Positions 21,061 to 29,613 of a stretch of 38,275 nt of DNA are shown here, piece by piece (within the stretch, counting starts at the first letter, position 1; the number at the start of each line of letters is the position of its first letter). This stretch comes from a virus. Both the position numbers and the translations under genes were made by a program. The stretch lies in the IMG/VR virus record IMGVR_UViG_3300032893_000165, positions 1 to 38,275 of that record; one strand, written 5' to 3'. The notes under the pieces are model-generated. The model saw only the letters and a list, made by a program, of their open reading frames with translations. It searched no databases and had not been told where the DNA came from.

Positions 21061-21681
21061 ATGGCTCTCAGCGACTCGGCAGGCGTCGGCAGTGCACTTC
21101 CCAGCCAAGTGGGTGTGACGTCTGGCTGGGCGCTGGTGACGAATGGCACAGTGGCATCCTGGGCCTCCGTGGGTGGTGGTTCTGGCGTGGATACTCTGGC
21201 GGCGGTGGGAAGCTCTCCCAATGCCAACGGGGGCACCATTGCCTCGACCACCCTCACGCTACAGCCGGCAGATGGAACCCATCCTGGCGTGGTAACGGCC
21301 CTGGCCCAGACGTTCGGGGGCCTCAAGACATTCACCAGCCAGCTGGCCTGCAGCGGGGACATCAGCGCCACGGGCCTTTCTGGAGACCAGGCAGTCCTGG
21401 GCACAACCTCCGGGACGGCAGCATTGGCATTCGTCCACTCCGGCACCCCCACTACCGTCTTCTGGACGGATGGTACGCACATTGTCCTGGGGACTCCTGG
21501 GGGTTCTGGTGATTTCTTCTTCCGTCAGGGCGGACAGTCCGGCACTACCCTCGCCCTCATCACCAGCACTCAGTTGGACTTGACTGGCCTCGGAGTCGGC
21601 GGGGCCATCAAACTCAAGTCCCCAGATGGAACTACCTACACAGCCACCATCGCCAACGGTGGTACCTGGAGCATCAGCTAG
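21061..21681 (+). CDS. Fibre-like virion protein
   Basis: ATG at 21061 directly after the previous TAA. The 206-residue product is Gly/Thr/Ser rich and beta-structured. It starts with SGWALVTNGTVASWASVGGG, a version of the LxTNGTxxSW motif present in the neighbouring spike, and carries ALAQTFGGLKTFTS, a common phage fibre element, and a short C-terminal domain ending IANGGTWSIS. It is likely a fibre or spike adaptor exposed on the virion. Confidence 0.65.
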   Translation: MALSDSAGVGSALPSQVGVTSGWALVTNGTVASWASVGGGSGVDTLAAVGSSPNANGGTIASTTLTLQPADGTHPGVVTALAQTFGGLKTFTSQLACSGDISATGLSGDQAVLGTTSGTAALAFVHSGTPTTVFWTDGTHIVLGTPGGSGDFFFRQGGQSGTTLALITSTQLDLTGLGVGGAIKLKSPDGTTYTATIANGGTWSIS

Positions 21682-21684
21682 GCC

Positions 21685-24600
21685 ATGCCGTATCCGCCCC
21701 CGCCGGGCCCACCCGGAGTGGGCGAGTTTCAGGCCATCGGGCTTCTCCAGGCACCGGCCATCCCCGATGTCACCGGGAATGCTGGAAAGTTTCTAGAGAC
21801 GGATGGAGTTGTCCCGCAGTGGGAGCCCGTCACTGGAGTTTTGCCTGACCAGACGGGACAGGCGGGCAACTTCCTCACCACGAATGGAACCAGCGCAAGC
21901 TGGGCTGCCATTCCAGCGGGCAGTACCTTCGACCTCCGCGACTACGGAGCGGTGGCAGACGACCCGACAAACGACGTCTCGGTGGCTTTCTACAACGCCG
22001 TGGCGGCGTTCAATCAGATGCTTGTCGGTCTGACTGAAATCTTCGGAACCAACGGGCCATTTGGAGCCATCGTCTTTCCGCAGGGCACGTTCTATACCAG
22101 CCGCCCGCTCTGTGTTCCGGCCAACTGTGAAATTTACGGTGCCGGTAAGACACTGACGATGGTGGTGCCGGGCACCGGAGACCACACCACCCCGTCGCTG
22201 GTGCAGGGCTATGCGGGCCCCATCTTTTTCGCCAGTCCGGCGTGGACCCCGGGGATGTTGCCCAACGTCTCCCAGCCCAGCCTCGGGACGTCATTGGCCA
22301 CCGGTTCTGGAAACTGCCTCAATCTCGCGCCCGGAACCGACGTGCTTCACGTCACAGCGAGTTACCCCCTCCACGATTCCTTCCCCTGGGGCACGTGGAT
22401 GGGGAACGACTACACGCTGACGGCGTGGAGCCTGGAGCTCTTCGTTCGCGTGGATAACCACCCCGGGACGGCGGCGGAAGAGGGAACGCTGGGCATCATC
22501 GGAAGCTATGGCCCTGGCGTCTGGGGCTCCAGGGACCAGAATTTCCCCTACGACTCGGCCTTCAGTCTCCGGGCAGTGGTGGATGGTAGCAACATCACCC
22601 TGGAAGCGCGCATCACCACCAACCCGGCCTACACCGGGCCGTTCAACACAGTGGCATCCGGCACCACGGTGTTGCTGTCTGGCACGGTGGCTCGGGCCAC
22701 GGTCCGGCATGTCGAGTTGGACTACACCGGCTCCAACTTCTACTTCTACATCAACGGGGTGCTGCAGGGCTCTACCGCGGCCACGGGTCCCATTATCAGG
22801 GCGCCCTGGGAGCAAACGCAGATTGGCGCCACGGGTAGCGAATGGAGTCACTCTGACAACACCGTCACCGGCGCCGTGGACGGCATCCGGATGTCGAAGG
22901 TGGCGCGGCACACCGGCTCCAACTTTACTCCGCCGACGAGCAAGCCAACGTGGGATTCCAACACGATGGCGCTCTACAACTTCGACCAGTCGGCACCCAC
23001 CATCCAGCCAAGGGATTCGGGCGGAGGTGATGTCGGGCCCCTGCTGACGCTGCCGATGTTCATCCCTGGAGTGCTTCGCTCCGGCATCAATGAAAGCACC
23101 TGGTTTTCCCCGGCCCTGGGCGACCAGGTTCCTCACTATGTGGACCTCTGGCCCATCGGCTTCGCGCAGAGCATCTACATCCACGACCTTGCCGTGACTG
23201 GCTGGTGGAGCTGCGTTGGCATCAAGGGCAAGCGCAGCCCCAGGCTGTGGGTCTATCGGACCGTCATCAATGAGATGGCCAATGCTGGCATCTGGGCGGC
23301 GGATGCCGAATCCTTCTTCGGCCAGCTCTCGGACAACTACCTCGGCAACGTGGCCGGTTCTGCCATCGTGCAGTTCGGTCGGGCAGACAGGAACGAAGCG
23401 CTCCAGTGCGGCATCGGCATCTACAATACCGCCGCTGGCGCGGTGACCTGGTTCAACAACCAGCCGACCTACAGCAGCTACGCCTGCATCGTCGGAGCTG
23501 GTGGCTCGCAGTTTTCTCAATACAACATCCAGAACGTCTCCAATGACACCGAGGGTTGGGCCTTCACCCGGATGATTGGGGCGGGAGTGCTGATTGGTCA
23601 GGCGGCATCCTGGTTCTCCTCTGGCAACCAGTGGGCCGCAGGCGGCACCTCATCCCCATTGAAGATTTTCGGGAATGCGACGCTGACCAACTTGCCGGAG
23701 GAGGCCGGGGCCTTTGCCAGCATCGGCGATGTCTTCCTTCCCCCTGTGACTGGCGCCAAATCCATCATTGATTTCGATTCGGCTAGCACCCCAATTGTCA
23801 GCATCACGCTGCAAAACGCCTATATCGCAGATTTCAATGAGCCAAGGCTTCCACTTTCTAACGTGGAAGGACTGGTTGCCATCCACGACTCTGCTGGCTT
23901 TAGCAATCTGCGGGGTCTCAGCATCTCAGACGTCAAGGCGGCCAACCTGGCTGGGTCTTTCACTTGCCAGGATGCATTCACCTGGGGCCAGGTGGTCTTT
24001 ACCAATCCAGAGCCTGACGCCAATTACCAGGTCGTCGTCACGCTACAGGCAACGGACGGCAGTCCTGCGGCCAATTCTAGAATTGTTGACCACATCGATT
24101 ACTTTGCCGACCGCTTTGTGGTGTCATTTGTGGCGGCCCCTGGTATGGGCGTCACAAACACCTGGGCCTGGCAGCTGGTTCGGGTCGAACCACCGGCACT
24201 CTATTACGATGCACATCCGTCGCTGCCGTCGTCCTTTTCCAATCCATTCGGTGGCGAGGTCAACAGGCCATTTGCTATTGCCATGACGTTGACGCCGAGC
24301 ACGGGCAATACGTTCTACTTTGGCAACTTTACCCAGCAGACCATTCTCTCCGCCGGGGCGACGATTGGGGCGGCCGATAGCTGGGAGGTCAACTGGGAAG
24401 CAACTCTCTTCTTTGCCAGTGAGTACTGCGGGACGAGCCACCTCGAGCTGGACCCATTTGTCCAGAATGGAAAGCTCTGCACCCATCGCAACCCCGGCTC
24501 ACACAACGTCGGCTTTTATTTCGACGGTTCCACGTACTACTACCTCATCGACGGACAGGCCAAGCTCATCCTTCCGGGGAGCAATCCCTTCGGTACGCAG

Positions 24601-25989
24601 CCGGCGACCGTCTACGTGGGCGAACGGTCGGACACCACCAACCCGCTGACTATCGCCAGCATCGCCAATCTCAAGATGGACCGCACGCCTGCGCGCGTCT
24701 ATTCCTTCGAGCAGACCATCGGCCCCGGTCTCCAGCTCCAGGCGGCGCTCTTTGGAGATGATTGGGTGACTGGCCAGGGTGCCTCCGCCTCGTCGCCATG
24801 GAGCGCGCAGGTCATCAACAACAAGTACGGCACGACGTACTACTGGATGCCCAACAAGCAGGCACAGTTGACGGGTCCATTCGGGCTTGGCACAACGCTT
24901 TGGCAGCCGTGGGCCGGCACGTCGAGCAGCCTCTCGCTCTCTGCCGTTGTCATCATGTGCGGCTGGTATGACTGCCTCAACAGCGTCCCGGCGGCGACCA
25001 CCTTTGCCGGACTCCAAGCCATCGTGGAGGGCGGCCCGGCGTCTGCCACCTGGAATCCCCCGACCTCCGGAACCACGCCGACGGACCAGCGGTCCTTTGC
25101 CATCGTTCAGGTCAACTCAAGCGGCACATCCGTGCTGACCATCGACGGACACAACATCAACATGGTGTGGCAGGGCAGCTTTGCTGCCACTACGGCCTTC
25201 GTCGTCAACGCCATCAATACCACTCCAGCCACCGACGCCATCGTCACTGCGACGGCCCAGGCGGCGGACCCGACCCAGAAGACGCTCATCATCAATACCA
25301 ACGTCATCGGCACCGCCGGCAATGGGATGGTCATCTCCACCGATGGCGTTGGCGGCAGCGGTGTCTATGGTGACCTCGGCACGGGCCCCGGCTTTGCGCT
25401 CTCCGCCAAGACGTTCGATGGAACGGACAACACCGTCACCATCTCCGGGCAGACCTTCGTCTGCAACTTCGATACGGACGTCACCACCACCATCAACAAC
25501 CTGGTGACGGCCATTACCGGCTCGTCCCTCAATGCAACCCTTGCGGCTGCCAATGCCGGAACAACGATGTCCCTGACGGCCAGGACCAATGGGACAGCCG
25601 GAAACACGGTGCGCCTCTCTGGCACCGGCTTCAATACTTCGGGCGCCGTGCCGGCATGGAGCAATCCCGTCACCGCCAATGCCGTACACATGGACGGCGG
25701 ATTCAACGGAGCCATTTCCCTTGGGGCTACCACCATCCTCGTCTGCAACGTGCCCCCGTTTGGAACCAACTCTAGCTATTCTGCCGGGAAGGACGCCATT
25801 CGCGTTACCCTCAATGGGCTGATTGGTGGCTACGCGGCCGCGGGCGTTACCATTGTTGACCTGGACCTCTTGGTGAGGGATGCCGGCGCACACCAGAACA
25901 TCAATCCCGCCTATGATGCAGGCAATGGCTATCCAAATGATGCCTGCCAGACCGCCATCTACGGACTCATCCAACCCCTACTGCCCTAG
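21685..25989 (+). CDS. Giant tail spike: beta-helix, LamG-like domains, SGNH-like pseudo-esterase
   Basis: ATG at 21685; 1434 residues. Order: Pro-rich start; two copies of the TG-x-AG-x-FL-x-T-x-G attachment motif (to 80); FDLRDYGAVADDPTND from 82, a pectate-lyase-type beta-helix start; an inserted concanavalin-like domain about 235-440; beta-helix turns to about 750; a second concanavalin-like region about 850-1015; and a C-terminal SGNH-like domain from 1022. There GDS is GDD (1024-1026), G-x-N-D is GWYD (1093-1096) and D-x-x-H is lost (Tyr1416). Two repeated modules (1117-1338) split it. Likely binds and perhaps cleaves host surface glycan through the helix. Confidence 0.8.
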   Translation: MPYPPPPGPPGVGEFQAIGLLQAPAIPDVTGNAGKFLETDGVVPQWEPVTGVLPDQTGQAGNFLTTNGTSASWAAIPAGSTFDLRDYGAVADDPTNDVSVAFYNAVAAFNQMLVGLTEIFGTNGPFGAIVFPQGTFYTSRPLCVPANCEIYGAGKTLTMVVPGTGDHTTPSLVQGYAGPIFFASPAWTPGMLPNVSQPSLGTSLATGSGNCLNLAPGTDVLHVTASYPLHDSFPWGTWMGNDYTLTAWSLELFVRVDNHPGTAAEEGTLGIIGSYGPGVWGSRDQNFPYDSAFSLRAVVDGSNITLEARITTNPAYTGPFNTVASGTTVLLSGTVARATVRHVELDYTGSNFYFYINGVLQGSTAATGPIIRAPWEQTQIGATGSEWSHSDNTVTGAVDGIRMSKVARHTGSNFTPPTSKPTWDSNTMALYNFDQSAPTIQPRDSGGGDVGPLLTLPMFIPGVLRSGINESTWFSPALGDQVPHYVDLWPIGFAQSIYIHDLAVTGWWSCVGIKGKRSPRLWVYRTVINEMANAGIWAADAESFFGQLSDNYLGNVAGSAIVQFGRADRNEALQCGIGIYNTAAGAVTWFNNQPTYSSYACIVGAGGSQFSQYNIQNVSNDTEGWAFTRMIGAGVLIGQAASWFSSGNQWAAGGTSSPLKIFGNATLTNLPEEAGAFASIGDVFLPPVTGAKSIIDFDSASTPIVSITLQNAYIADFNEPRLPLSNVEGLVAIHDSAGFSNLRGLSISDVKAANLAGSFTCQDAFTWGQVVFTNPEPDANYQVVVTLQATDGSPAANSRIVDHIDYFADRFVVSFVAAPGMGVTNTWAWQLVRVEPPALYYDAHPSLPSSFSNPFGGEVNRPFAIAMTLTPSTGNTFYFGNFTQQTILSAGATIGAADSWEVNWEATLFFASEYCGTSHLELDPFVQNGKLCTHRNPGSHNVGFYFDGSTYYYLIDGQAKLILPGSNPFGTQPATVYVGERSDTTNPLTIASIANLKMDRTPARVYSFEQTIGPGLQLQAALFGDDWVTGQGASASSPWSAQVINNKYGTTYYWMPNKQAQLTGPFGLGTTLWQPWAGTSSSLSLSAVVIMCGWYDCLNSVPAATTFAGLQAIVEGGPASATWNPPTSGTTPTDQRSFAIVQVNSSGTSVLTIDGHNINMVWQGSFAATTAFVVNAINTTPATDAIVTATAQAADPTQKTLIINTNVIGTAGNGMVISTDGVGGSGVYGDLGTGPGFALSAKTFDGTDNTVTISGQTFVCNFDTDVTTTINNLVTAITGSSLNATLAAANAGTTMSLTARTNGTAGNTVRLSGTGFNTSGAVPAWSNPVTANAVHMDGGFNGAISLGATTILVCNVPPFGTNSSYSAGKDAIRVTLNGLIGGYAAAGVTIVDLDLLVRDAGAHQNINPAYDAGNGYPNDACQTAIYGLIQPLLP

Positions 25990-27417: not shown

Positions 27418-29613
27418 ATGCTCTACGCCCGGAAACAGGCGCTGAAGACAGTCACCGGGGTCTCCCCCACGGGAGGCATCAACTCCGTTGCGGCCCTGTC
27501 CCAGATGCAGCCGGACGAATGCGTCCAGCTGGAGAACCTCTGGCCCGGGGCCTTCGGGGCCACCTCGAGACTCGGGAGCGCCGTCCACACCCAGGATGTC
27601 GGCTACTACCCGGCCATCTCCACATTCACCCCGCCGACGTCCGCGACCGCCACGTGCGTCATTTCCGGGCACAGCTTCACCGCGACGCACCACACCGACG
27701 CCGACACCACCGTCAACGACTTGATTGCCCTCATCCAGGCCAACCCCACGGTGTCGGCGCTGGTGACGGTGACGCTGGTGAGCCACAAGATGCAGGTGAC
27801 GGCCAAGGCCTTGGGTGCCTCGGGCAATGGCATCACCACCACCTCCAACAACGCCAACGGGGCGAGCTTCGACCACGCCTCAACGCAGGGGGGCATCTCC
27901 AGCACCTCCGGCAACTACACCCTGATTCCCTTCCATGGAGAGGACGGGACCCACGACAAGCTCTTCGTCGCCACCAACCAGGGCCTCTGGGACTGCTCCG
28001 TGACGGGCGCCGTGCCGACGCTGCTTCTTGCCTTCGCCGCCACGACGGGCCTCGCGGGCATCGGCTCGAGCACCAACTTCTCCTCCATCGGCGACCACTT
28101 CTGCGTCTACTGCGACGAGGTCAACGGCTACTACCTCTACACGGAGTCCACGCAGACCTGGCAGAGGGTAGGAACCGGGACGCCCAGCACCTCCGTCTAC
28201 ACCCCACCCACGGCAGCCACCGCGACGTGCGTCATCAACGGGACGACCTTCGTCGCCACCTTCGACACCGACGCCGGCACCACCATCGCCAACCTCATGG
28301 CGATTATCCGCTCGGATGACGCCATCACGGCGCTGGTCAAGCTGTCCTCCGACGGGAGCCTGATGACGGTGACGGCCGTGGAGCCGGGCACGGCGGGCAA
28401 CGGAATTACCACGACGACCGACGGGGCCAACGGCGCGGCCTTCTCTGCCGCGGCGACGACGGGCGGGACGGATGGCGTCTATGGGGTCAACCCCAACGAC
28501 TTCGTCTTCCCGTGCGTGTGGATGCGGCGACTCTGGTTCTGCGAGCGGGGGAGCTCCACCGGGTGGTTTCTCCCCTTCGACTCCGTCTTCGGGGAGGCCA
28601 AGCCCTTCAACTTCGGCGCGAGCCAGCCGGCGGGTGGCGCGCTGAAGTGCATGGCCAACTGGACGGTGGACTCCGGCAATGGCGTCGGCAACAACCTGAT
28701 TGTCATTTCGGAGGCCGGGAACGTCTCGGTCTACTCCGGCTCGGACCCGGAGGTGACGGGGGCCTTCCTCCTCACGGGCGTCTGGTTTGTGGGCGGCTTC
28801 CCGGTGGGAAGGAATATTTCCGCGGGGGACGGCGGGGACGTCATCATCATCACCAACCTGGGCGTCATGTCCCTGGCCCACTACCTCCAGGGCCTCTCCC
28901 TGGCGGACCGAACGCTCTACGCCACCAAAAACATCCAGACCCTCATTCAGGAGGAAGTCCAGGAGAACGGCAACTCTTACGGATGGCAGATTGTCATTAC
29001 GCCCGACGAGCAGGCCATCATCATCGTCGTCCCCCAGCCCAATGGCATGGCGCCCATCTGCTACGGGGCGCCCTACGCCACGCGCAACTGGTGCAAGCTG
29101 ACGGGCCGCTCGGCCTTCACCATGGGGGTCTGGCTCAACAAGCTCTACTTCGTGGAGGCGGGGACTGTCTCGGACCTCTACGAGGTGAACGGCTCTCTGG
29201 ACTTCGTCCAGCTGGATGGCTCGGGAGGCCAGCCCATCCCCTGGACCGTCTTCGGCAGCTTCCAGCCCTATGGGACGCCAGCTGTGAGGAAGCGGGTGCA
29301 GATGCTGCGCCCCTACTTCACCACCACCGGGAGCACGGTCAACTACTCGATTGCCGCCCGGTATGACTACGACTTGACCCCGCCCCCGCCCGCCACCACG
29401 CCGTCCACCCTCCCGGCCGGAAGCCTCTGGGACACGGCGGTGTGGGACGTGGCGCTCTGGAGCTCGGGGACGGCCTCGCTCTTCCCCTTTCAGCAGCTGA
29501 ACGGCGCGACTGGAGAGGGCCACGTCGTGGCCGTGGCGCTGACGGGCTACGCCATCGAGCCCACCACCCTGGTCCAGGTGGACGTCATGTACGAGGAAGG
29601 GAATTATTTTTAG
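27418..29613 (+). CDS. Tail hub (P22 gp10-like) with two inserted modules
   Basis: ATG at 27418 immediately after the previous stop; 731 residues against roughly 470-550 for simpler relatives. The start SPTGGINSVAALSQMQPDECVQLENLWPG is the typical hub or DNA-stabilisation protein start (N-terminal GIN ... LENLWP). LFVATNQGLWDCS and later blades (GNVSVYSGSDPEVTGAF, SAFTMGVWLNKLYF) suggest a beta-propeller. Two copies of the repeated module are inserted at residues 68-159 and 259-350, explaining the extra length. It would close the tail with the adaptor upstream. Confidence 0.75.
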   Translation: MLYARKQALKTVTGVSPTGGINSVAALSQMQPDECVQLENLWPGAFGATSRLGSAVHTQDVGYYPAISTFTPPTSATATCVISGHSFTATHHTDADTTVNDLIALIQANPTVSALVTVTLVSHKMQVTAKALGASGNGITTTSNNANGASFDHASTQGGISSTSGNYTLIPFHGEDGTHDKLFVATNQGLWDCSVTGAVPTLLLAFAATTGLAGIGSSTNFSSIGDHFCVYCDEVNGYYLYTESTQTWQRVGTGTPSTSVYTPPTAATATCVINGTTFVATFDTDAGTTIANLMAIIRSDDAITALVKLSSDGSLMTVTAVEPGTAGNGITTTTDGANGAAFSAAATTGGTDGVYGVNPNDFVFPCVWMRRLWFCERGSSTGWFLPFDSVFGEAKPFNFGASQPAGGALKCMANWTVDSGNGVGNNLIVISEAGNVSVYSGSDPEVTGAFLLTGVWFVGGFPVGRNISAGDGGDVIIITNLGVMSLAHYLQGLSLADRTLYATKNIQTLIQEEVQENGNSYGWQIVITPDEQAIIIVVPQPNGMAPICYGAPYATRNWCKLTGRSAFTMGVWLNKLYFVEAGTVSDLYEVNGSLDFVQLDGSGGQPIPWTVFGSFQPYGTPAVRKRVQMLRPYFTTTGSTVNYSIAARYDYDLTPPPPATTPSTLPAGSLWDTAVWDVALWSSGTASLFPFQQLNGATGEGHVVAVALTGYAIEPTTLVQVDVMYEEGNYF

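Follow-up and report, generated by a model that had tools for sequence, protein, structure and literature searches.

A phage tailspike ending in an SGNH domain with replaced catalytic residues and two inserted sheath/FliD-like modules

The window, i.e., the whole stretch of DNA analysed here, is a 38,275-base IMG/VR virus record with similarity to the phages Mx8 and Mx9 of Myxococcus and BUCT555 of Stenotrophomonas in its genes for capsid, portal and tail. The capsid proteins belong to the same family (60-69% identity) and the gene order around the tail proteins is similar, but Mx8 and BUCT555 have no comparable spike gene at the same place, and their tail protein lacks the modules described below. 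The spike of the window is composed of a conserved N-terminal tip, a presumably pectate-lyase-like body with a LamG insertion, a second beta region, and an apparent pseudo-SGNH domain at the C-terminus. A Pfam search with the whole protein revealed a LamG-like match in its N-terminal half, whereas the pectate-lyase-like label is taken from the orthologue L005, which matches the pectate-lyase profile PF12708 at 4.3e-9, the window spike itself being without a match. Because of these two matches the gene is best interpreted as encoding a tailspike. The SGNH/GDSL domain comprises the last about 417 residues of the 1434-residue protein (24736-25986) and is split by two repeated modules (Table 1). 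Close to the N-terminus of the spike (21760-21912) there are two copies of a short repeat, LPDQTGNAGKFLTTNGTxxSWA in type, with a related form in the preceding ORF (21061-21681); the repeat is also present in a tail-region protein of phage ct2KA10.

Table 1. Features of the tailspike gene and of the other module-bearing genes (positions in the window).
Feature	Position	Strand	Basis or remark
Tailspike gene	21685-25989	+	Intact ORF, 1434 aa
SGNH first half, residues 1018-1116 (strand 1, nucleophile elbow, strand 2, strand 3, helix 3)	24736-25032	+	Pfam, AF2, alignment
Asp1026 aligned with the catalytic Ser (block I, GDD instead of GDS)	24760-24762 (codon GAT)	+	Alignment, codon check
Tyr1095-Asp1096 aligned with the Asn-Asp of GxND (block III)	24967-24972 (Y1095 = TAT, 24967-24969)	+	Alignment, codon check
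Inserted module 1, residues 1138-1246, sheath/FliD-like	25096-25422	+	Profile, PHROG, AF2, Foldseek
Inserted module 2, residues 1247-1339, sheath/FliD-like	25423-25701	+	Profile, PHROG, Foldseek
SGNH second half, residues 1345-1434 (strand 4, helix 4, strand 5, C-terminal helix)	25717-25986	+	Pfam, PDB profile search, AF2, Foldseek
DAGxH, residues 1399-1403	25879-25893	+	D1399 and H1403 invariant in the three spikes
Gly1413-Asn1414-Gly1415-Tyr1416 at the place of Asp-x-x-His (block V)	25921-25932 (G1413 = GGC, 25921-25923; Y1416 = TAT, 25930-25932)	+	
Tail (nozzle-type) virion protein	27418-29613	+	Module copies at residues 67-159 and 258-350
Virion-region protein between major capsid protein and spike, 510 aa	19528-21060	+	Three diverged module copies

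The SGNH/GDSL fold that a first-pass annotation of this DNA had proposed for the C-terminal domain was confirmed by homology, i.e., by Pfam after excision of the insert, by the relatives L004 and L005, by a PDB match and by phylogeny, and it agrees with the predicted structure and its Foldseek matches. The uncut window spike yields no GDSL match in the Pfam search with the whole protein. After excision of the insert the domain matches Lipase_GDSL_2 with an E-value of 4.7e-6 over profile positions 2-157 of 178, at a score below the curated Pfam cut-off (27.6 vs 32.9 bits). The same profile is matched by the likewise excised domains of L005 (1.4e-4) and L004 (1.1e-10, 42.7 bits, above the curated cut-off), and L004 gives a GDSL match also when uncut (2.8e-7). 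A profile of the three spikes retrieved from the PDB the SGNH/GDSL hydrolase 9kr0, a polyvinyl alcohol (PVA) esterase (E 2.6e-4), and the hhalign comparison of the spike family with 49 phage SGNH domains from IMG/VR gave a probability of 98.9% and an E-value of 2.8e-16. These 49 domains and the spikes form an alignment of 52 rows; the comparison rows were picked so that the blocks align, and as controls with intact motifs they provide no base rate for dead SGNHs in phages. A set of 122 phage reading frames with D..HPND.G was selected independently of Ser and Asn, and G[DNE]S is found upstream in 102 and GxND or GxDD in 100 of them. An alternative alignment of 66 rows was discarded, because it put block III behind the insert.

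The AF2 model built on an alignment that included SGNH rows has a mean pLDDT of 67.5, with values of 80-96 over most of the core. Structure prediction had been proposed as a check of the fold, and the model exhibits the SGNH order of elements, b-a-b-a-b-a-[modules]-b-a-b-a, in which the modules follow helix 3 and precede strand 4. The split by two modules is as annotated before, while the start of the domain was shifted from residue 1022 to near 1018 and the module borders to those of Table 1. Foldseek searches with the model retrieved the PVA esterase, the acetyl-xylan esterase PbeAcXE, GDSL lipases, and the OSK domain. The matches to SGNH esterases (E 2e-4 to 1e-3) are local, cover about 80-100 residues and have low query TM-scores, since the SGNH fold is split by the insert. 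As the SGNH rows in the alignment partly impose the fold, the sequence evidence weighs more than the model. A model from the three spike rows alone was too poor for use (pLDDT 46 overall). Six other phage SGNH proteins of IMG/VR (L104, L119, L153, L156, L163, L208) apparently have another type of beta domain, located after block I and ahead of the later blocks, which is maybe a separate way of interrupting the SGNH fold.

In the 52-row alignment, the position of the catalytic Ser (block I) is occupied by Asp1026 in the window spike, by Asp in L005 and by Ser in L004. In the same order, Tyr1095, Trp and Thr are found at the position of the oxyanion Asn (block III), and Tyr1416, Thr and Tyr at that of the catalytic His (block V). 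The block-V Asp aligns in the window spike with G1413 if no gap is placed and with N1414 if one gap is allowed, so that its counterpart is not Asp in either case. The column of the block II oxyanion Gly (1061), a region where the alignment is weak and where L004 has a GGG nearby, contains Gln, Ala and Ala in the spikes versus Gly in 38 of the 49 controls. The loss of Ser, Asn and Asp/His had been claimed in the first-pass annotation; it is upheld by the alignment, and a codon-by-codon check verified the positions of D1026, Y1095, G1413 and Y1416. For the SGNH lipase SrL it has been described that Ala at Ser10, Asn82 or His216 singly abolishes activity (PMC10779480), and the counterparts in the window spike are Asp1026, Tyr1095 and Tyr1416. 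From these replacements we infer that the domain is probably devoid of esterase activity.

Homologues with intact Ser, Asn and His were found solely among ordinary phage SGNH domains without modules, while within the spike family L004 keeps the Ser and no member keeps the Asn or the canonical His. D1096 is invariant among the three spikes. The conservation comparison revealed no invariant Ser or Cys across them, which argues against a relocated classical nucleophile common to the family. H1403 is the sole invariant His, with D1399 four residues ahead. It is located 13 residues before the old His position, in a column that is mostly a gap in ordinary SGNHs and in which His is not among the commonest residues. 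A nearby Ser/His pair, which had been named as an observation that would speak against a dead domain, is by conservation represented by one invariant His and by no invariant Ser.

Seven copies of the inserted module are present in three virion-region genes of the window; the spike and the tail protein have two each, and the 510-residue protein has three. The module profile was built from 12 copies, stemming from two genes and three phages. An HMM of the tail-protein copies alone detected spike module 2 at 4.7e-10 and module 1 weakly at 0.037, and none of 200 shuffles matched this HMM at E = 10; the identity of module 1 is supported mainly by the orthologues and by the predicted fold. The repeated modules first noticed inside the SGNH domain were recovered, module 2 clearly and module 1 weakly, with an HMM from a different gene. 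The tail sheath family phrog_165 matches 8 of 15 module copies (best 1.1e-4), and Foldseek retrieved the sheaths of A-1(L) and Mu as well as FliD. Single-module Pfam matches (FTHFS and others) were judged not credible. FliD-like domains have been described in the XM1 sheath, where the domain is an insertion (PMC10457771), and in an auxiliary capsid protein of crAss001 (PMC10172136), and additional sheath domains have been proposed to be virion stabilisers (PMC9230969). By profile matches and predicted structure, the inserted module has a tail-sheath/FliD-like fold, akin to the additional domains of tail sheaths.

Both modules of the tail protein are stretches that are missing from Mx8 p52 and from the BUCT555 homologue, which align on either side. 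These clean insertions characterize the module as an add-on domain that has been placed in several virion-region proteins of the lineage, and the interruption of the SGNH domain is one case of these insertions. At the place of the 510-residue protein Mx8 has a protein of 162 residues, and the longer protein may be a decoration protein of the capsid that has grown by acquiring modules. The label "amidase" (PHROG 5107) for the tail protein gene is unsupported; its homologues are annotated as tubular tail B, head closure or stabilization protein, and the label looks like an old mis-annotation that has been passed on.

The spike family has three known members, all metagenomic. The two relatives of the window spike, L005 and L004, were reached through neighbouring tail and capsid genes. 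Direct searches of IMG/VR, GTDB genomes and GenBank phages with the C-terminus retrieved no relatives, nor did a search of IMG/VR with the whole spike. In GenBank phages the whole spike matched short stretches, either N-terminal or from LamG. In a tree of phage SGNHs the three spikes form one clade with a support of 100/99, within which the window spike and L005 are sisters (93/72). The ORF is open in all three, that of L004 being cut off at the contig start. The identity among the spikes is 36-48% in the SGNH halves versus 27-43% in the compared rest of the spike (short N-terminal tip left out). As the SGNH halves are at least as conserved as this rest, the domain seems to be maintained, as a kept pseudoenzyme rather than junk. 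The positions TYYW, W-W, EG, DAGxH and ND are invariant at an overall identity of 36-41%.

SGNH esterase domains are used by many phages to deacetylate surface polysaccharides. We regard it as probable that the spike tip is a pseudo-SGNH domain under constraint, which carries the modules as a putative platform for glycan binding or structure. The simplest course on the tree would be that the ancestor of the spike family had an SGNH esterase domain, that the common stem lost the oxyanion Asn as well as the catalytic His, which are missing in all three members, and that the nucleophile Ser was replaced by Asp later, in the branch of the window spike and L005, an order that is read from a moderately supported branch. 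The fold would have been retained under constraint, as shown by the conservation, and any depolymerase activity would more likely reside in the spike body. The tip may act as a non-hydrolytic glycan-binding or structural end-piece and would be a scaffold for the two modules between helix 3 and strand 4. Judged from the canonical topology, this junction would be on the side of the SGNH domain away from the active-site edge, so that the modules can project outwards with the core undisturbed. The projecting modules may represent extra contact or stabilising domains. A point against the glycan-binding role is that no motif for it was recognized in the tip.

The first-pass annotation had offered a platform or an unusual nucleophile as interpretations. 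Fold, residue loss and interruption have stood up to sequence, structure and phylogeny, and of the two roles the platform would be the more probable. The invariant H1403 together with an Asp at the Ser position of two members could mean that the chemistry is altered, not lost. Asp1026 would then be a nucleophile or a metal ligand and His1403 a new base, and the domain would still be an enzyme. It is in accord with such a role that two of the three members have Asp and no random residue at this position, that D1096 is invariant, and that an invariant Asp/His pair, D1399/H1403, lies in the loop preceding the C-terminal helix, which is the location of the Asp/His in SGNH enzymes. Asp in place of Ser occurs in haloalkane dehalogenases, which have the alpha/beta-hydrolase fold. 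However, L004 has Ser, so that the nucleophile would differ within the family, the oxyanion Asn is lost, and an invariant Ser or Cys is missing; altered catalysis is thus unlikely. Its specific form, a re-wired SGNH enzyme in which Asp takes the serine site and works with the family-specific His1403, appears quite unlikely. We know of no SGNH enzyme with an Asp nucleophile, and such an enzyme, if true, would be the first case of this chemistry on an SGNH fold known to us.

It is also unlikely that the end-piece is purely structural, the dead SGNH domain and the modules aiding trimerisation, packing or tip stability without glycan binding. The addition of the module to two further virion-region proteins and the stabilising role proposed for additional sheath domains (PMC9230969) fit this reading, but host-surface contact is favoured by the location at the extreme C-terminus of a tailspike, which is normally receptor-facing, and by the origin of the fold in polysaccharide processing. 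A decaying relic that is carried along without function would explain why the catalytic residues were lost differently in each member; the open ORFs (L004 up to the contig start), a core identity as high as that of the rest of the spike, and the invariant positions listed above make it very improbable. Even more remote is the idea that the domain is no SGNH at all and that the likeness consists of short motifs chosen by eye. The whole window protein has no Pfam GDSL match and the good AF2 model was built on an alignment with SGNH rows, but L004 matches GDSL uncut and passes the curated cut-off once excised, and the PDB sequence match is independent.

Adsorption proteins with an SGNH domain are likewise found in the E. 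coli phage G7C (gp63.1), in Klebsiella prophages (RBPs), and in the Acinetobacter phage Aristophanes (gp41) (PMC13123978, PMC11058221). These are active esterases, in contrast to the window spike with its replaced Ser, Asn and His and two modules after helix 3. The phage SGNH receptor-binding proteins tested so far are active esterases or deacetylases (PMC13123978), and a literature search, which covered few subscription journals, retrieved no paper about a catalytically dead phage SGNH tail domain. By sequence as well as by structure, the C-terminal half is most similar to the PVA esterase 9kqz/9kr0, with the motif NPIYDSGDALHPND versus NPAYDAGN-GYPND; the esterase has the canonical D-x-x-H, whereas the window spike has G/N and Y. 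The OSK domain of insect Oskar has an SGNH-like fold that resembles a catalytically inactive SGNH hydrolase (PMC12247748), and likeness to it was seen in a weak Pfam match of L004 (E 0.034) and in the Foldseek match 5a4a (E 0.063). OSK is a domain of a eukaryotic germ-plasm protein that co-elutes with mRNA, and is a precedent solely for the reuse of a dead SGNH fold. The inserted module shares its fold with the InD of the XM1 sheath, the FD domain of crAss001 gp36, and the sheaths of Mu and A-1(L) (Foldseek, PHROG), but differs from these systems in being repeated, with copies in three virion-region proteins of an Mx8-related phage and also inside an SGNH domain.

Phage SGNH domains annotated by profile are commonly taken as esterases, and several have been proven to be so. 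In the spike family the fold has been kept while residues that are individually essential in SrL were lost, and therefore profile annotation alone would misname it; the L004 domain passes the Pfam cut-off although it has neither the Asn nor the His. The three spikes represent a small natural series, with Ser kept and then Asp, of how a receptor-processing enzyme may turn non-enzymatic. The sheath/FliD-like fold of the module and its seven occurrences in three virion genes of the window phage are new findings of this analysis. One such module has spread over three virion-region proteins, even into the middle of an enzyme fold, which is a parallel to the better-known Ig-like domains.
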